21,799 bases of DNA, taken from IMG/VR virus record IMGVR_UViG_3300049617_000013, positions 1 through 21,799 of that record; one strand, 5' to 3'. The notes below the pieces were generated by a model. It saw only the letters and a list, made by a program, of their open reading frames with translations. It had not been told where the DNA came from and made no database searches. Below, piece by piece: positions 12,598 through 20,199 of this stretch. Every line of letters starts with the position of its first letter. Positions within the stretch are counted from its first letter, which is position 1. This DNA comes from a virus. Position numbers and translations under genes: made by a program.

Positions 12598-12755
12598 CAG
12601 GCGAAGACCGCAAGTGCGACCATGACGGTGCCCGGCACGATGAATGCCGCCGGCGGATAGATCAGAAAAAGGCCATAGCCGCCCAGCGCGAGGCCGAAGG
12701 CGCAAAGGACGTCGCGGCCGTCGATCCCCTTGATGAATTGTTTGATCGCGTTCAC
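12597..12755 (-). CDS. Small membrane protein between terminase and portal
   Basis: A protein of 52 residues from a GTG at 12755 that overlaps the terminase stop (GTGA), while its own stop overlaps the portal ATG (TGATG). This double coupling supports a real gene. After a short basic, amphipathic N-terminus ('NAIKQFIKGIDGRD') come two hydrophobic stretches, 'VLCAFGLALGGYGLFLIY' and 'AAFIVPGTVMVALAVFA', each long enough to cross a membrane, separated by a Pro-Pro turn. The role is unknown; small membrane proteins in this place occur in other siphophages, and lysis-related or superinfection functions are possible but not shown. Confidence 0.7.
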   Translation of the reverse strand: MNAIKQFIKGIDGRDVLCAFGLALGGYGLFLIYPPAAFIVPGTVMVALAVFA

Positions 12756-14518
12756 GAGATCGCTGTCCCCTCGGCAATCGCCTTGTGCAGATCGGCAGGC
12801 GGCGGCGGCGCAGCGATGCAAAGCGCATCGGCCATGACGGCCGTGACAATGCCATCGATGTTGAGCTTCGATGCCTTTTTTGCCGGCACGAAATTCATAT
12901 TTTCGTCGAAACGGACTGCGCAGTGACCTGCCATCCAATTGAGAACCGGATGCGAGCCGTGATCGAGATCGCCGGCATAAACACGGCGCTCCAGATCGGC
13001 GCTGGCCGTGCCAAGCGTGCGATGGCCCTGGCGAACCTCAGTCAGCCGATCGGTCGAAATGCCTTCCTTGACCAGATCGGTGTAGAGCTTTTGCGCGTTC
13101 CAAGGATCCCAGCCGAAAAGCTGCACATCGAAGGCTTTGAAATCCGCGACGACAGATTTCAGCACATAGTCGAGATCGATGACGCCGCCGGGTATTGGGA
13201 TGATCGCGCCCTGCTCGGCCCAGCGATCGAAGCCGATGCGCTCGCTCTTGCTGCGCGCGGCGATGGTTTCTTCGGGCAGCCAGAACTTGGAAAGAATTTT
13301 CGGCGCTTTCTCGCCCTCGATCGGCGGAAACCAGAACGTGGTCGCCGTGAAATCAAAATTCTTGGAGACGTCGGCGGCGCCGTAGCACTTGCGGCCGGCC
13401 AGTGCGGCGGCGAAGCCTTTCCAGGCATCCGGCCCGCTGCTGCAGGCTTCCCATTTTTTCCGGTTGAGCCAGCGGACAACCTGCTCGACCCACTGGTTTA
13501 GATGGTAGCGGCGGAAATGCGCCTCGCGGCGCGGATTGTCTTTTGCAAGCGACAGCTCGCGGCGGATGAAGGCGATGGTCGGCGACAGGCCGAGCGAGGG
13601 ATTGGCTTTCGCGATGACTTTTTCGTCGGTCCAATCTTCTTCCTCGCCGGCGGCGAAGATGACGACAAGCGTTGTCGGATCGTCAGTGCGGCCCTCGTCG
13701 ATCGCGAGGCTTTCGTCCCACATCTGCAGGCCGACCGCTTGCGTTTTTAGGCCCGCGGTCGACGCATAGAGTTCGATCGGCTGCAGGCGCGCGCCAGTGC
13801 CCTGGCGCAGATTGTTCATAACCTCCATCGTTTCCCACTCGTGCATTTCGTCGCCGAGGATGACTGTGGGAGATTTGCCGTGCTTGCCTTCGCCGCGGCC
13901 GGTCAGCAGCACGAAGGCGGCGCGCAGATCGGCAATCCAGATCGACTTTTTGTTGACCAGCGCGCGCTTGGCAATGCCCGGCGCATAACTGATCATCGCC
14001 TTCATGCGGGCGAAGGGGATGGCCGCCTGGTCCTCGTCGCGGGCGAAAACATAGCCCTCGCCTGCGACGACGCCCTCCAGCAGAAAGAACAGCAGCGCCA
14101 GCGCGGCGAGGAATTCCGTTTTGCCGTTTTTGCGCGGTATCCAAAGCCGCAATTGGCGAAACAGGCGGACGTGAACGATGACGGTTTGGCCGGAGTCCGG
14201 GTCCGTGACCTCGTTCGGCACTTTCCAGCCGATCAGGAGGCGCACGATCGCGTCCTGCCAGATACTGAGGCGGAACGGCTTCGATGCGAAGCGGTCGATC
14301 GTCAGTTTGAAGATGCGCGGCCACAGCGCGACGGTTTTATCGGCCTTCGCTGTATCGAACCATGCGCCGGGCACGGCAGCGGCGCGGCGCCAGTAGCGGC
14401 GCACCCAATCGAAGCCATGATCGTCGGCGGCAGCGCGCACCCATTCCGGTTCCGGGTGCAAACACTCTGGCGCGCCGACCGCAAGCGCCGCGGCGCTCGT
14501 CGCTGTCGGGGCATCCAT
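12752..14518 (-). CDS. terL: Terminase large subunit
   Basis: A protein of 588 residues, normal for the family. The ATPase has a Walker A-like 'IPRKNGKT' (residues 127-134) and Walker B 'VILGDEMHEW' (Asp223, Glu224), with the coupling motif 'LYASTAG' near residue 250. The C-terminal nuclease begins at 'CYGAADVSKNFDFTA' (Asp383), and a further acidic residue lies in 'SKLNIDGIVTAVMADAL' close to the end. The enzyme docks on the portal, drives DNA into the prohead and cuts the concatemer. It lies 10 bp after the small subunit, and its stop overlaps the next gene. Its neighbourhood to an HNH nuclease suggests cos-type cutting. Confidence 0.95.
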   Translation of the reverse strand: MDAPTATSAAALAVGAPECLHPEPEWVRAAADDHGFDWVRRYWRRAAAVPGAWFDTAKADKTVALWPRIFKLTIDRFASKPFRLSIWQDAIVRLLIGWKVPNEVTDPDSGQTVIVHVRLFRQLRLWIPRKNGKTEFLAALALLFFLLEGVVAGEGYVFARDEDQAAIPFARMKAMISYAPGIAKRALVNKKSIWIADLRAAFVLLTGRGEGKHGKSPTVILGDEMHEWETMEVMNNLRQGTGARLQPIELYASTAGLKTQAVGLQMWDESLAIDEGRTDDPTTLVVIFAAGEEEDWTDEKVIAKANPSLGLSPTIAFIRRELSLAKDNPRREAHFRRYHLNQWVEQVVRWLNRKKWEACSSGPDAWKGFAAALAGRKCYGAADVSKNFDFTATTFWFPPIEGEKAPKILSKFWLPEETIAARSKSERIGFDRWAEQGAIIPIPGGVIDLDYVLKSVVADFKAFDVQLFGWDPWNAQKLYTDLVKEGISTDRLTEVRQGHRTLGTASADLERRVYAGDLDHGSHPVLNWMAGHCAVRFDENMNFVPAKKASKLNIDGIVTAVMADALCIAAPPPPADLHKAIAEGTAIS

Positions 14519-14528
14519 GACAGCGCGG

Positions 14529-15206
14529 TCAATTCATCCGCGAGGGCGGCGGATCAGAATCGAATTGATTGAGAATACCGAGAGGGTCGCCTTCGGGCGC
14601 GGGCGCTGCAGGCGCGGCCGGCGGCGTATCATCTTGCGCCGGTGCCGGCGTTGCAGCCTTGGCCGCGGCGCGATCGACAAGGTCGCCTTCGCCGCCGCGA
14701 CGCGGCAACTGATCGCGCACCAGGAATTGATCCTTCATCAGCGCGTAACGATCAAGCGGCGTCAGGCCAAACCGCTTCGATAGCTCCATGACGAATTTTA
14801 CTGCAGCGTCACGGCGAGAGACGGCCGGGTTTTCGCGCAGCATCACATCCTTGGAAATCGTTTTGACCGCTTTGGAATAGCCGTTGCGCAGAATGTCGTC
14901 ATGGGCGGCAAGAAACTCGGCCATGTAGACGCAAAAGATCGCGAAGCTATGGCGATCGACGCTGTCGAGCAGATTGGAGCGTGAGAGCTGCGGCGCATAT
15001 TCGTTCCACACCGCGAGCGCCGGCTGCATGCGCTTATCGTTCACGTAAGCCGGCGGCGACAGCGGCGCGTCGCTCGATGCCGGCGCCGCGGCGAGCAGCT
15101 CGGCGAGCCGGCCGGCTTCCTCGATCGCGCGGTCGATCTTGCTCTTGCGCTTGCCGGGATAACCGCGCTGGCGCTGCTGCTGCGGAGATTGCCGGCGACG
15201 TCCCAT
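14529..15206 (-). CDS. terS: Terminase small subunit (P27 family)
   Basis: A protein of 225 residues. The N-terminus is basic ('MGRRRQSPQQQRQRGYPGKRKSK'), fitting DNA binding. The core has 'MQPALAVWNEYAPQLSRSNLLDSVDRHSFAIFCVYMAEFLAA', then 'ENPAVSRRDAAVKFVMELSKRFGLTPLDRYAL'; the final 'FGLTP..R' is a clear sign of the P27 family. The last 60 residues are an Ala/Pro-rich, disordered tail. The protein recognises the packaging site, usually near its own gene. The ATG at 15206 is chosen because the conserved region follows and GGAGG lies about 13 bases upstream; the reading frame extends further back but covers only the palindrome and A-tract region. Confidence 0.88.
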   Translation of the reverse strand: MGRRRQSPQQQRQRGYPGKRKSKIDRAIEEAGRLAELLAAAPASSDAPLSPPAYVNDKRMQPALAVWNEYAPQLSRSNLLDSVDRHSFAIFCVYMAEFLAAHDDILRNGYSKAVKTISKDVMLRENPAVSRRDAAVKFVMELSKRFGLTPLDRYALMKDQFLVRDQLPRRGGEGDLVDRAAAKAATPAPAQDDTPPAAPAAPAPEGDPLGILNQFDSDPPPSRMN

Positions 15207-15352: not shown

Positions 15353-15700
15353 CTACCCCCCGCCTAATAGGCCGGAAGTCTTTTCGGCAGCTTGCAGCTC
15401 GCCGTCGTGACAGGGTTTGCACGCCGAGGCGTGGTTATTCGGGTCGATGAACAGCGCCCAATCGCCCTTGTGCGCGCGCTTGTGGTGAACAACAGTCGCC
15501 GCAGTGACGATCGACGGCGATTTAGCGAGGCAGGTTTCGCATAACGGCTGCCTGCCGAGTTGCATCAGCCGTAACCGTGACCAGATCGCGAGATTGTACC
15601 AGCCGCGCCACGGCTGTTCGGCCTTACGCCTTCGATCGAAGCTAGCACGATCGCCCGGACCAAGATGCTGCGGTCGGAAAACATTCGGCTTAGGTGGCAT
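15353..15700 (-). CDS. HNH endonuclease of the packaging module
   Basis: A protein of 115 residues from the ATG at 15700 (an ATG at 15727 would add 9). A CxxC pair (Cys54, Cys57 in 'LCETC') and a second one (Cys94, Cys97 in 'ACKPCH') form the zinc site, and the HNH core is 'VVHHKRAHKGDWALF' (His72/73), 'DPNNH' (Asn88/89) and His98. 'WYNLAIWSRLRLMQLGRQPLCETC' before it is the usual lead-in for phage HNH proteins beside terminases. Such proteins work with the large terminase in cos cleavage, and the gene stands directly before the small terminase. The stop lies inside a G-rich tract. The upstream gap carries four CGTCACG repeats. Confidence 0.88.
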   Translation of the reverse strand: MPPKPNVFRPQHLGPGDRASFDRRRKAEQPWRGWYNLAIWSRLRLMQLGRQPLCETCLAKSPSIVTAATVVHHKRAHKGDWALFIDPNNHASACKPCHDGELQAAEKTSGLLGGG

Positions 15701-15730
15701 TGCATCGTTTCGGGTGTGCGCGGCCATTCG

Positions 15731-15784
15731 CGTGACGGGCGCGTGGCAAGCGGCGTGACGATGACCGTGACGGCGAACGTGACG
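15731..15784. repeat. Four CGTGACG direct repeats, three with 12-bp period
   Basis: Copies of CGTGACG start at 15731, 15754, 15766 and 15778 on the plus strand. The last three are spaced exactly 12 bp apart, and the first is 23 bp away. They fill most of the gap between the NusG-like gene stop (15789) and the HNH start (15700). They could bind a regulator or a packaging protein, or be recognised on the RNA. Confidence 0.5.
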
Positions 15785-15788
15785 ACGC

Positions 15789-16472
15789 TTAGAGCTTTTG
15801 GATATCGGCCAGCGACAACTCAACCGGCACGTGGCCCCCGAACATCGCGACAAGCAATCTGATTCTCGTCGCATCGTCCAGTTCGCCGACAGCGACGTCA
15901 GGAAGCTCGTCAATGATGCCATCGTGCCCGCTAAACGGTCCGCTGTTGATCAGAACGCGCTCGCCGACCTTCCATTCCTCAACAGCAAGCTGCCGCGGCG
16001 ATGGCAGAATTTTGCCGATCTCTTTGATCGTTGCCTTCGATGGCAACGCGCCGTCGACTTCAAGCGCACGCAAGGCGTTCACGATTGCATCATCGATCGG
16101 CGCCGGCAGTGCACGCTCGCCATCGGCATCGCACAGCAGACCTTGAACGCCGATACGCTTGAATAACGCCGGCCATTGACCGTCATCAAGCGAGAAGCGG
16201 ACAAACGGATAGCGCGGCCACAACGGCCGCAGAACCGTCACTTTGCTCGGCAGCAGCGCGTTGCGCTTCGATGCTGTGAGCTTTCGCTTCGGAATGTCTT
16301 TCAGCTCGCGGACTTGGGTATAGCAAACCTCGTAGCCGGCATTACGCAAACCCTGGACCATCCGCGCATCGCTGGGATTAACCGAAAACGCCACGTGCCA
16401 TCGAGCGCCAGCCACACCGCTCATCGGAAAAGTGCCCGAATGAAGATCGGCGTCGTTTGATCGGATCAGCAT
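15789..16472 (-). CDS. NusG/RfaH-family transcription antiterminator
   Basis: A protein of 227 residues with both NusG domains. The NGN domain (about residues 22-120) starts 'GARWHVAFSVNPSDARMVQGLRNAGYEVCYTQ' and includes 'LRPLWPRYPFVRFSLDDGQWPALFKRIGVQGLL', the RNA-polymerase-facing signature 'PLFP.Y.FV'. The KOW domain (about 166-227) has 'WKVGERVLINSGPFSGHDGIIDEL' and 'RIRLLVAMFGGHVPVELSLADIQKL', as in host NusG. About 40 residues of linker lie between. AGAGGAA precedes the ATG at normal distance. Placed after the 400-bp non-coding region and before all late genes, it probably loads on RNA polymerase to allow read-through of the long late operon; that role is inferred. It could instead be a host-NusG competitor. 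Confidence 0.88.
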   Translation of the reverse strand: MLIRSNDADLHSGTFPMSGVAGARWHVAFSVNPSDARMVQGLRNAGYEVCYTQVRELKDIPKRKLTASKRNALLPSKVTVLRPLWPRYPFVRFSLDDGQWPALFKRIGVQGLLCDADGERALPAPIDDAIVNALRALEVDGALPSKATIKEIGKILPSPRQLAVEEWKVGERVLINSGPFSGHDGIIDELPDVAVGELDDATRIRLLVAMFGGHVPVELSLADIQKL

Positions 16473-16496
16473 TTGTTAGTTCCTCTTGTGCCCAGC

Positions 16497-16505
16497 TTGT
16501 CCACA
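16497..16505 (+). promoter_or_regulatory. DnaA-box-like site TTGTCCACA
   Basis: One mismatch from the TTATNCACA consensus, at the third base. A second candidate lies 23 bp away. Confidence 0.4.
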
Positions 16506-16519
16506 GCAAACGCGGTGAC

Positions 16520-16528
16520 TTATCCAAA
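16520..16528 (+). promoter_or_regulatory. DnaA-box-like site TTATCCAAA
   Basis: One mismatch from TTATCCACA, at the eighth base, in the same orientation as the neighbouring site; the starts are 23 bp apart, about two helical turns. Confidence 0.35.
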
Positions 16529-16613
16529 ACTCTCGCAAAGCATCGAATGTCCTACCTGTCCCACCTTGTTAAAAAGGTAGGTCAGTAAATCCGTGCCGAT
16601 ATGATGCGGCGTT

Positions 16614-16640
16614 GCCCCACCTGTCCGGCCTGCCCTACGT
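16614..16640 (-). repeat. Iteron-like repeat copy 1 (inverted orientation)
   Basis: Read on the minus strand it begins ACGTAGGGCAGGCCGGACAG and continues GTGGGGC. It shares the ACGTARGGCAGG core with the copies at 16760 and 16824, but in the opposite orientation. Its end resembles the GGGACAGGTAGG box near 16551-16562. Confidence 0.5.
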
Positions 16641-16759
16641 TTCGGCAAAGTCGACAATAAATTTCCGCACGCCTTTTGAGCGCGAGACACACGCGGCACG
16701 AGTCCAAAATGAAAGGCTCGACTCGCGCGCGCACGCGCACAGGAGTCCGCACGTAGGTC

Positions 16760-16778
16760 ACGTAAGGCAGGCCGGGCG
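16760..16778 (+). repeat. Iteron-like repeat copy 2
   Basis: ACGTAAGGCAGGCCGGGCG. It is identical to copy 3 over the first 12 bases and again over the last 5, and is spaced 64 bp from it start to start. A partial ACGTAGGTCACGT element directly precedes it. Confidence 0.55.
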
Positions 16779-16805
16779 AATGCCGATGGAATGCGGTAAA
16801 CTCCG

Positions 16806-16842
16806 CGCCCTACCTCGCGCGCGACGTAAGGCAGGTAGGGCG
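16806..16842 (+). repeat. Iteron copy 3 within a perfect 10-bp inverted repeat
   Basis: CGCCCTACCT (16806-16815) and AGGTAGGGCG (16833-16842) are exact inverted repeats around a 17-base spacer. The iteron ACGTAAGGCAGGTAGGGCG occupies 16824-16842. It starts 31 bp beyond the helicase stop codon, so it may also fold in the mRNA, but no T run follows. Confidence 0.55.
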
Positions 16843-16872
16843 ATTTTCGCCGATGTTTTTGCTGTTGACGGA

Positions 16873-18546
16873 TCAAAACGGCACTTGCTCGTCCATAGAA
16901 TCAGCAACCGGCGCTTGCTTTGCGTCGTCATCGAGCGGCCAAGTGACTGTTTGGTTGAGACTGCGCGCGAATGTGTCTCGCGCTTCCACAATGTCCGGCA
17001 TGATGTAGCACCATGTCCGCTTGGTGCTGGTGTTGCCTTGCTCGTCCTGCACATCGATCGTCCGTTTCTTGCGGTCGATCTGCGGCAACAGCTTGCCGAG
17101 TTTGATGCCGAAAACGGTTTCCTCTTGCTTTCGGCGCACGCCGATCTTTTCCGACGTCGCGATATAGTCGTCGAACAGCGCCGAACACGCGACCTCGCGG
17201 TTCCAGTTCACGCCATAGCGCAGCGTCGCGCCCGATCGCAACCGGCCGTACCACCAGCTTTCGACGCTATCGAGCGTCCTGATTTTCTGTTCAAGGAGCG
17301 CATCCGTGCGCGGTATCTTGCGCAGATCGATGCTGTTGAGATCGAACCGCAGCAGATCTCCGAGCAGATGCGCCAATCCGCCATCGGCGAGCAGCTCCTT
17401 ATCCATTTCGCCGAAATAATCATGGTTTTGCGCACAGCGCGGATCGACGTCGAGCACGGCAAAGCGCCGCTCGTCCTTGCCGGCCGGCACAACCCAATCC
17501 TCATTCGACGTCAGAATGAGCCGCACATAGTTTTTCAGCCGGATCGGATCGACGCCCTTGGCTTCGATCTGCTGGATCGGCGACGTCACCAAGCCCTTCA
17601 ATCGGCCTTCCGCCGCTTTGTCGCCCGCCCACACGGCCTCATCGGCCTGCAGCAAGAGACACGTCGCCATGTGCGCGTTGAATTGTCCGGTCACATAGCG
17701 CGGATCGTCGACCAGGAAATAATGCCGCGGAATGATCCAGCCGATCACTTCGCCGATTTTCGTTTTGCCGCTGCCCATGCGCCCGCGCAGCACCAGCGCC
17801 ACGCCCATGCGCTCGCGCGGCCGCTGCAGCATGTGCGCCAGGAAGCCGAACACCCATTTGAACAGCGCGTCGTCGCCGCTGCACACATTGGTCAAAAGAT
17901 GATCGCGGAACGTCTTATAGCGTTTGACGTCCGGTTCCTTAGCGGCTTCGATCGAGAATCCCGACCACAAATTGAGATAGCCGTCCGTGCCCGGCGCGCC
18001 GTCCGGGTTCGGATGAAATTCGATGCCCTTATAGCTGCGCCGCTTTTTCGACTGCAGCCAAGCGGTCGCCCATGTCACCGTCTTGATCTTGTCGTCGGCG
18101 CTCAGGCGTTCCGTGAAGCGATTGGCAAACCACGCGCGCAGCGCGTCAAGGCTGAGAACGCGCTTTTGATCCTCGATCGGCGCATCCGGCTGCTCAAGGA
18201 ATACGACCGCTTTGCTGCCCATCAGCACGAGCGCAAATTCCTTGTTCATCTGCTCGATCGAAAAACCGCGCGCCTTCGGCTGCGCCGGCTTGGCCTCGTC
18301 GTCGCCGGCGTCGCCTGTTTCGCTTGCTGGAGCGCGAGAGTGACCGTCGGCCGGGTTTTCTGCATCAGAGGCCGGCGAGGATGACGCGGCGTCGGCCGGT
18401 TTGTCGGCTGAAACCCCAGCCTTTTTCTCGCGCGCGCTCGCTTTGGCGGCAGACGACGCTTTAGGCACAAGCGCAATGACATTCGGTGCCGCGATCGGCG
18501 CCGCTGCATCGATGATGGCGACGATATTTTCCCAGCCCGCGATCAT
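16873..18546 (-). CDS. Phage primase-helicase (DUF5906-type P-loop ATPase)
   Basis: A protein of 557 residues from the ATG at 18546, 5 bp beyond the primase stop. Residues 28-92 are a low-complexity Ala/Ser/Pro/Asp linker. The ATPase domain carries Walker A 'GRMGSGKT' (residues 255-262), then 'FLVDDPRYVTGQFNAHMATCLLLQADEAVWAGD', with a Walker B-like 'LLLQADEA', and the sensor-like 'VRLILTSNEDWVVPAGKDERRFAVLDV'. This order is that of DUF5906 helicases of phages and plasmids, related to superfamily 3 / D5-like enzymes. It probably unwinds the phage origin. The C-terminal 150 residues, ending 'MDEQVPF', have a possible winged-helix segment ('CSALFDDYIATSEKIGVRRKQEETVFGIKLGKLLP'). Confidence 0.88.
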   Translation of the reverse strand: MIAGWENIVAIIDAAAPIAAPNVIALVPKASSAAKASAREKKAGVSADKPADAASSSPASDAENPADGHSRAPASETGDAGDDEAKPAQPKARGFSIEQMNKEFALVLMGSKAVVFLEQPDAPIEDQKRVLSLDALRAWFANRFTERLSADDKIKTVTWATAWLQSKKRRSYKGIEFHPNPDGAPGTDGYLNLWSGFSIEAAKEPDVKRYKTFRDHLLTNVCSGDDALFKWVFGFLAHMLQRPRERMGVALVLRGRMGSGKTKIGEVIGWIIPRHYFLVDDPRYVTGQFNAHMATCLLLQADEAVWAGDKAAEGRLKGLVTSPIQQIEAKGVDPIRLKNYVRLILTSNEDWVVPAGKDERRFAVLDVDPRCAQNHDYFGEMDKELLADGGLAHLLGDLLRFDLNSIDLRKIPRTDALLEQKIRTLDSVESWWYGRLRSGATLRYGVNWNREVACSALFDDYIATSEKIGVRRKQEETVFGIKLGKLLPQIDRKKRTIDVQDEQGNTSTKRTWCYIMPDIVEARDTFARSLNQTVTWPLDDDAKQAPVADSMDEQVPF

Positions 18547-18550
18547 GGTG

Positions 18551-19702
18551 CTATGCCGCGCCCCGCAGCGCGTCGTTGAAATCCATGCCATCAGGCGCCC
18601 AGGCGACGCGCACCACGCGCCCATCGCGCGTGAAACGCTGCGCGCCGCGCCATAGCGTGCAATGCGTCGTGAAGCGGTCGCTGTCGCCGTCGCCGAGCAG
18701 CACCACGTCCTGCACGCTGTCGGGGATGGCGATCGACACCGTGTCCGGCGCCGGCGCCAAGCCTGGCACGCGCCGCCTTTTGCCGCCGGCATCCTTAAGC
18801 GTCGGATGCGGCACGCTGTCGGCCGACTTGCCGCCGATATTGCCAAGATCGACCGATGACCAGAACGCAAAGCCCGACAGATCGCGGCCGGACCGCTGCA
18901 GCGCCAGCCAGACCGACAGCACGGTTTCGATGCCTTCGCCGAGGCAAAGCGAAACCGGCGCGTCGCTCGGCTGCGACAGCCGGATCACATGAGCGGCTTT
19001 CGAGCCGCGCACCTTTTTCGATGGCAGATAAGCGCCAGTTTCCGGCTCGCGGATGCCGGCTTTTCCTTTCAGCCGGTTCAGATCGAGCCATGTCATGTGC
19101 AGCGCGCGGAACGTGCCGCCGGCGTCGACGATCGGCGCCAGCATGCACGGCCCGCGATGCACGATCGTCGCATCCTTCGCGCCCGTTAAGTAGTACGGCA
19201 TGTCGTCGAGATAGCGCAGCCGCAAATCGGCCGGCAGCGTATGCAGGCCGCGCAGCTCCAGATAGTCTTGCACAGGCGTGCCGCGGAATGGTGTGCCGCG
19301 CCGCCATATCTCGAAAACGGTTTCCCGCTCGCGCTCGCGAAACGCATTATTGGCGACGGCGGCTTTTGTGCGCTTCGCCTGGCGCTCGCGCTCCAGCTCG
19401 GCGGCGCGCTCGGCGTCCGGCTCGGCCGCGCCGCCGAGCTGCTCAATCGCCGCACGGAAATCGATTGACTCGTGCATCATCAAAAGCTTGATGACGTCGC
19501 CACCTTCGCTGCACACGGCGCAAACCCAATACTTGGCGTCGCATTCAAACGCCGTCGAGTCGCGCGCGGCAGGATCGGGCGAATGCAGCGGACACGGCCC
19601 GATCATCATCTTGCCGTGCCGGCGCAGCGTCACCCAACGCGAAGCGACCGCGTCGCACGGATTGCGCTGTTTCAGTTCCTCGATCGCGGCATCGGAAATC
19701 AC
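18551..19702 (-). CDS. DNA primase (CHC2 zinc finger plus Toprim)
   Basis: A protein of 383 residues from a GTG at 19702, three bases after the preceding stop; an ATG at 19792 would overlap the previous gene by 88 bp and add an unlikely Arg-rich leader. The N-terminal zinc finger has Cys37-x2-His40 and Cys61-x2-Cys64 followed by 'SEGGDVIKLLM', as in CHC2 primases. A helical linker (about 85-140) follows. The Toprim part has Glu in 'LCLGEGIETVLSVWLAL', the acidic 'VVLLGDGDSD' and ends with 'APDGMDFNDAL'. It matches phage and plasmid primases of the DUF7146/Toprim_3 plan. It makes primers for phage replication together with the adjacent helicase, with which it is co-transcribed. Confidence 0.9.
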   Translation of the reverse strand: MISDAAIEELKQRNPCDAVASRWVTLRRHGKMMIGPCPLHSPDPAARDSTAFECDAKYWVCAVCSEGGDVIKLLMMHESIDFRAAIEQLGGAAEPDAERAAELERERQAKRTKAAVANNAFRERERETVFEIWRRGTPFRGTPVQDYLELRGLHTLPADLRLRYLDDMPYYLTGAKDATIVHRGPCMLAPIVDAGGTFRALHMTWLDLNRLKGKAGIREPETGAYLPSKKVRGSKAAHVIRLSQPSDAPVSLCLGEGIETVLSVWLALQRSGRDLSGFAFWSSVDLGNIGGKSADSVPHPTLKDAGGKRRRVPGLAPAPDTVSIAIPDSVQDVVLLGDGDSDRFTTHCTLWRGAQRFTRDGRVVRVAWAPDGMDFNDALRGAA

Positions 19703-19704
19703 TT

Positions 19705-20199
19705 TTAGGTTCCGACCTTGGGCCCTTCCGAGCCGTCGTTTTCGTACCAAGTGAATTCGCCAGCCTCGCCGACCGGGAAATGGCCGCGGCATGTGGTGCA
19801 GAATGTGCCGCTATAAAAGCCAGGATCGCGCGCGCAGGTTTCGGCAATGTCGCGGCTCATTGTTGTGATCTTGCCGCATTTCAAATGCCGATAGGCATCG
19901 CGCACCGGGCGCACAAAGCCCTTGCTGCGCTCGGCATTGGTCAGAACGACATAACCCTTTTGCTGACCGCTTTCCGGCTCGATCTCGCGATGATCATCCG
20001 TCACAGCACCGCCGCCAGAGAGTTGCCGTGCTGCTCGGTCGACGGGAATAGCCGCAGCCGCTTCGCGCTTCGCCGCGTCCAGACGCTGGCGCGCAGCCGT
20101 CAGCGAATTTCCCTTTTCGGCCACCGCATGCTGTGCGTCGGTGAGCTGCAAAACGGCGTCGTCATAGTCAGCTTGCGCGCGCTTAAGATTTTCATTCAT
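19705..20199 (-). CDS. Coiled-coil protein with Cys-rich C-terminus
   Basis: A protein of 164 residues. Residues 1-50 are a helical, probably coiled-coil stretch ('AQADYDDAVLQLTDAQHAVAE'). From residue 100 the sequence is conserved-looking: 'RDAYRHLKCGKITTMSRDIAETCARDPGFYSGTFCTTCRGHFPVGEAGEF' with Cys108, Cys122, Cys134, Cys137 and His140, able to hold a zinc ion. I know this C-terminal pattern, ending in a short acidic tail and 'KVGT', from small proteins of alphaproteobacterial phages and mobile elements, with no established role. GAGGGGC lies just before the ATG. It directly precedes the primase, so a part in replication or its control is possible; this is inference. Confidence 0.75.
   Translation of the reverse strand: MNENLKRAQADYDDAVLQLTDAQHAVAEKGNSLTAARQRLDAAKREAAAAIPVDRAARQLSGGGAVTDDHREIEPESGQQKGYVVLTNAERSKGFVRPVRDAYRHLKCGKITTMSRDIAETCARDPGFYSGTFCTTCRGHFPVGEAGEFTWYENDGSEGPKVGT

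Follow-up and report, generated by a model that had tools for sequence, protein, structure and literature searches.

The window, by which we mean the whole 21.8-kb stretch of DNA analyzed here (positions 1 to 21,799 of IMG/VR record IMGVR_UViG_3300049617_000013), has its genes on the minus strand, as are all features located below. In reading order, small genes are followed by two replication genes recognized by profile matches, a Zn-ribbon/Toprim DNA primase (18551..19792) and a DUF5906/P4-type primase-helicase (16873..18870, start uncertain). After a non-coding stretch of about 400 nt (16473..16872) comes the gene for a 227-amino-acid NGN-KOW protein, a NusG paralogue (15789..16472). It is followed by an HNH endonuclease starting with MPPKPN (15353..15700; profile matches and sequence), the terminase small subunit TerS (14529..15206; profile matches, start codon taken from the sequence), the terminase large subunit TerL (12752..14518; profile matches), the portal, and other late genes. 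A previous, sequence-only reading had correctly named the NGN-KOW gene as the first after the non-coding stretch. It had also placed the gene at an early/late boundary. This boundary exists as a change of gene content and not as a change of strand, since the upstream replication genes are also on the minus strand. A consensus search revealed no promoter.

The open reading frame of the NGN-KOW gene is intact, and both profile searches and a confident structure model confirm that it encodes a complete NGN plus KOW protein. Residues 24 to 134 matched Pfam NusG (E value of 3e-4, just under the curated cutoff), and residues 169 to 189 gave a weak match to KOW. The best-fitting profile was PHROG 6386, "transcription antiterminator" (E value of 1.1e-10). 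The scores against NCBIfam profiles were far below the cutoffs: nusG matched at 2e-9 with 37.7 bits versus an equivalog cutoff of 135.7, RfaH with 28.8 bits versus an equivalog cutoff of 144.5, and LoaP with only an E value of 0.14 and 12.3 bits versus 125. The AlphaFold2 model had a mean pLDDT of 84.5, with most of residues 19 to 227 confident. Residues 1 to 18 were modeled with low confidence, and Met17 (about 16424) may therefore be the true start. In the predicted model, the NGN domain (residues 22 to 139) superposes on the NGN domain of RfaH, its closest solved structure (Z of 11.3, 2.5 Å, 101 residues). The KOW domain (residues 162 to 227), modeled as a beta-barrel, superposes on the C-terminal domain (CTD) of Escherichia coli NusG (Z of 8.6, 2.0 Å, 59 residues). 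The window protein belongs to the NusG superfamily, with an NGN domain followed by a KOW beta-barrel.

A scan of viral contigs with the NGN-KOW protein of the window found no close relative. For this reason, we used TerL as the bait to fetch related prophages and viral contigs, mostly from Alphaproteobacteria, and then sought NGN-KOW proteins in them by an iterated profile. Six aligned terminases were 49 to 57% identical to the window TerL. In about 49 non-redundant related alphaproteobacterial phage and prophage loci, an NGN-KOW gene occupies this slot, flanked by replication genes and HNH-TerS-TerL, with an identity of only 16 to 37% to the window protein. All 48 aligned NGN-KOW proteins (the window and 47 others) matched PHROG 6386, indicating that the protein family is already annotated; the literature that we found describes no mechanism for it. 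In a tree of 76 proteins, the host housekeeping NusG proteins formed one clade (100/99) without any phage sequence. The window protein grouped with those of L003, L035, and L097 (97/99; L numbers denote loci of our set), and E. coli RfaH grouped with plasmid RfaH-like sequences (100/96), apart from the window protein. The outcome that would have spoken against a specialized paralogue, a place within the host NusG clade and no phage relatives, did not occur, as the relatives are many and the window lies outside that clade. The gene is a divergent, specialized phage NusG paralogue and not a housekeeping NusG. A test of whether all phage NGN proteins share one origin gave a p value of 0.175, which allows for one or several. 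Among the fetched loci, nine contigs (L005, L006, L007, L024, L030, L031, L061, L072, and L081) end 530 to 750 nt before TerL, within or just before TerS, perhaps at a packaging (cos) end.

The position of the gene can be compared with that in sister phages lacking NGN-KOW. In these, the slot is filled by DUF6362/PHROG 6836 proteins, by DUF6456/PHROG 21451 proteins (GafA family), by PHROG 9306 proteins, or by orphans. DUF6456 is the annotation of homologues of GafA, which directly activates gene transfer agent (GTA) genes through RNA polymerase (PMC9638019). That sister phages exchange the occupant of the slot, a GafA relative included, argues that the slot houses late regulators that succeed one another by non-orthologous replacement. 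This bears out the suggestion that the NGN-KOW protein stands in the place of a late regulator. Individual occupants include DUF6362/PHROG 6836 proteins in L023 (6101-6625), L029 (5950-6417), L080 (6133-6663), and L094 (6093-6596), which are candidate late regulators; a DUF6456 protein of the GafA family in the window-related phage L105 (5861-6682), with a similar-looking protein in L087; and members of the uncharacterized family PHROG 9306 in L073 (2436-3398), L093 (5644-6447), and L100 (5999-6724).

The sequence-only reading had suggested a search for a recruitment element in the 5′ leader, and the leader (16473-16872) does carry a repeat array of a conserved kind, made of CCTACC/GGTAGG words in both orientations. 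However, such arrays accompany the helicase and not NGN: among loci with a helicase, an array follows it in 28 of 30 that lack NGN and in 11 of 13 that have it, but only 2 of 33 NGN loci with no detected helicase carry one. Since the repeats track the helicase, this stretch is probably a replication origin, and recruitment of the protein through the leader is hardly credible; the element linked to NGN sits on the 3′ side of the gene. Arrays of a 7-mer, repeated 4 to 11 times with copies in either direction and with a word that varies by lineage, lie downstream of SF3/P4-type helicase genes in the window, L016, L022, L029, L080, L084, L093, L104, and others, and are probable phage replication origins. 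A palindrome shared by the regions before NGN and before TerS was rejected as a candidate, being present only in L003 and L004. This 25-bp palindrome, CACTGTGGGGAATTTCCCC.CAGTG, is found in L003 at about -53 of NGN and -729 of TerL, and likewise in L004.

Directly behind the NGN stop codon of the window, a tandem array (15731..15783) consists of five units, four GTCACG and one GCCACG, at a spacing of 11 to 12 nt. It is a candidate element for recruitment (or for the loading of Rho). At this place, 12 of the 12 known members of the window clade have a tandem RYCAC[C/G] array whose units are spaced at 11 to 13 nt. Using this hexamer pattern, which is our own definition and was fixed after the clade had been seen, we counted 44 units in the clade, versus a mean of 4.5 and a maximum of 11 in shuffled sequences and none on the reverse strand; in 45 other NGN loci, the count was at most one. 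A first periodicity test, which ignored changes of spacing, gave the window array a p value of 0.026 and showed no signal in L035 or L097; it was replaced by a test that allows spacings of 11 to 13 nt and was devised after the wider clade had been seen. Five members use GTCACG or ATCACG as the array word and seven use GCCACC; one is mixed. The array is closed in the window by a terminal motif, GCGAATGGCCGCGCACACC (15713..15731), which by eye resembles AGUGC-N3-GCAUG of other clade members and the 3′ (last) hairpin of the RNA found in phages of Rhizobiaceae. The HNH gene starts at 15700, about 30 nt past the last unit.

This array could instead load Rho, which is the main alternative to a role in recruitment. 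It would then be a rut site that ends the early transcript together with the intrinsic terminators of the relatives, and NGN-KOW would be an anti-Rho protein or a competing NusG, without sequence-specific recruitment. In all 12 members, C exceeds G in the array and a C recurs every 11 to 13 nt, as in the published definition of a RUT site (78 nt, C > G, C every 11 to 13 nt; PMC6407284), and the YC chain and C excess of the window array rank within the top 0.3% on the window minus strand. The loose form of this definition, however, is passed by 28% of the window strand. Moreover, conservation extends beyond YC to the full hexamer, the array word roughly agrees with the NGN tree, on which it needs 2 changes (a number as low was reached in 17 of 500 shuffles), and a conserved-looking motif closes the array. 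The Rhizobiaceae relatives, in turn, have a structured RNA instead, which is unlike a rut site. Taken with these observations, a Rho-loading array is an unlikely explanation.

In the Rhizobiaceae phages, a conserved, covarying RNA of about 100 to 160 nt lies directly behind the NGN stop codon. In an alignment of 42 sequences, which was fitted to the model and thus leans towards it, 95.6% of the cells were paired, 23 of 30 pairs had a compensatory change, and the covariation was 0.386 versus 0.134 after shuffling. An unfitted alignment of 13 sequences gave 95.0% paired and 14 pairs with a compensatory change. The RNA matched no Rfam family at the gathering threshold and is not described in the literature that we found, whose coverage leaves out most subscription journals. 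The covariance model R1, built without protein data, was convincing in 14 loci with NGN and in none of those without. Applied to 297 genomes of one family, it gave strong new matches, and all of those read adjoin an NGN-KOW open reading frame at 15 to 19 nt behind it, except in L223 (about 50 nt). Among 2.9 million viral contigs, a 24-nt motif of the RNA occurred in 64, at least six of which were already in our locus set, and NGN-KOW was found upstream in 61 of the 61 with enough DNA. An intrinsic terminator follows the RNA within 150 nt in 57 of 63 cases (0 of 63 on the reverse strand). As several contigs come from related phages, our counts are not of independent events. Five of five named phages, phi2LM21, phi3LM21, Rivra, PPF1, and Nsp-JY10, have the RNA. 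Some of the late operons behind the RNA have lambda gpA-type terminases and others are HK97-like, placing the RNA module ahead of unrelated operons. The R1 and R2 models found no such RNA in the window, even with filters off, and R2 did not reach into other NGN clades. A related-looking motif, GYGCG-(N)-AAGC, is present in the NGN gaps of other clades (15 of 35 loci, versus 1 of 35 on the reverse strand). In the Methylobacterium-type loci L036, L037, L038, and L104, NGN is followed by a hairpin, GTTGCAAA.CTGCAAC, and then by an CGTGCGTTAGCTTTG-like sequence and a GC-rich hairpin.

We scored intrinsic terminators by a definition of our own. Their density in the gap between NGN and HNH was 2.68 per kb, versus 0.16 to 0.26 per kb in control regions, with up to three in series. 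A terminator follows the array in 9 of the 12 members of the window clade; the window itself has no intrinsic terminator of scored strength from NGN to HNH. Terminators before HNH are not specific to NGN, because phages lacking NGN also carry them there (0.82 per kb; 11 of 26 loci). Behind NGN in L027, L028, L086, L102, L106, L107, L111, and L116, two serial terminators (one scored in L107) surround a conserved segment (GGGTGTGCGGT...CCCTCCTTGGGCGTTTCCTCC), which is partly common to L033, L297, L299, and L300.

The 3′ element nearly always starts no more than about 20 nt from the stop codon of NGN, as it might if the element regulated NGN-KOW itself, as an autoregulatory 3′ untranslated region or attenuator with no role in late genes. 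Yet a terminator and then the late operon lie downstream on the same strand, and the element is found ahead of unrelated late operons. Both observations fit control of the downstream genes, and we regard autoregulation as quite improbable. The protein might also have its target in the host and not in the late operon, working in trans by taking the place of host NusG and lifting Rho silencing from the phage genome. The KOW domain retains an FG motif, which reads FGG in the window and FGR in many relatives, at the position of the loop by which E. coli NusG binds S10 and Rho. The fixed genomic slot and the cis elements linked to the gene argue instead for a target nearby and leave an action in trans very little probability.

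Together, these results make it likely that the phage NusG paralogue is a late-gene antiterminator with a linked 3′ recruitment site. According to our model, host RNA polymerase would first transcribe the NGN-KOW gene along with the replication genes, and would next reach a stop region ahead of the late genes. Newly made NGN-KOW would load on the elongating polymerase at the signal directly behind its own gene, with its NGN domain sitting on the polymerase clamp and the protein touching the signal as nascent RNA or exposed DNA. The modified polymerase would pass the stop region and run through the long packaging and structural operon, and these genes would be expressed late. The signal would vary by clade, being the folded RNA in Rhizobiaceae phages and the tandem RYCAC[C/G] array in the window clade, and we infer that the window works like its relatives. 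The missing scored terminator and Rhizobiaceae RNA in the window, the pre-HNH terminators of phages without NGN, the lack of a consensus promoter, and the fit of the array to the Rho-loading definition all count against antitermination. We give even chances to the broader proposal that these phages represent a class of late-gene control where the signal that recruits a NusG paralogue adjoins the gene of that paralogue. The signal would have diversified, giving a large structured RNA in one lineage and a tandem RYCAC[C/G] array in another as the protein co-evolved, and the pair would form a portable module before unrelated late operons.

If true, a family derived from NusG and paired with a linked signal would reveal how target specificity arises among NusG paralogues and would offer many natural protein-signal pairs for testing this. 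The covarying RNA lies outside Rfam and is accessible in isolated phages. The slot also flags DUF6362, PHROG 9306, and PHROG 6386 as unstudied candidate late-regulator families.

To our knowledge, the phage antiterminators known so far are small unrelated proteins (N, Q, and P7) or RNA (put). RfaH promotes the transcription of long operons; it recognizes the DNA element ops, and its CTD is alpha-helical and autoinhibited. The window protein shares the NGN fold with E. coli RfaH, but its CTD is predicted to be a KOW beta-barrel rather than alpha-helical. The PHROG 6386 label that it matches is a family name only, to which the literature that we found attaches no mechanism, RNA element, or array. 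In phiLM21-like prophages, a gene beside HNH, where the early region ends, has been annotated as a "transcription antiterminator"; phi2LM21 and phi3LM21 carry NGN-KOW and the RNA, whereas the passages found of that report give no NusG identity, RNA, or mechanism (PMC12429752). A NusG-like gene of a Helicobacter pylori prophage was proposed, on the basis of annotation, as a late or lysis regulator (PMC11321410). By analogy, the layout resembles that of lambda Q with pR′ and tR′ and that of GafZ, which antiterminates a GTA cluster (PMC11150451): a regulator gene lies beside a terminator before one long late operon. These proteins are unrelated to NGN-KOW, however, and use promoter-embedded DNA elements (PMC6606751, PMC11150451). 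LoaP of Bacillus velezensis, also a specialized NusG paralogue, is alike only in genomic layout, with an RNA signal and an intrinsic terminator before a long operon, and the proposed antitermination would follow a similar logic: LoaP needs a leader RNA hairpin to suppress the terminator (PMC12691694). LoaP differs in controlling antibiotic operons; in the phages, the signal takes the form of a multi-helix RNA or a tandem array and immediately follows the NGN gene.
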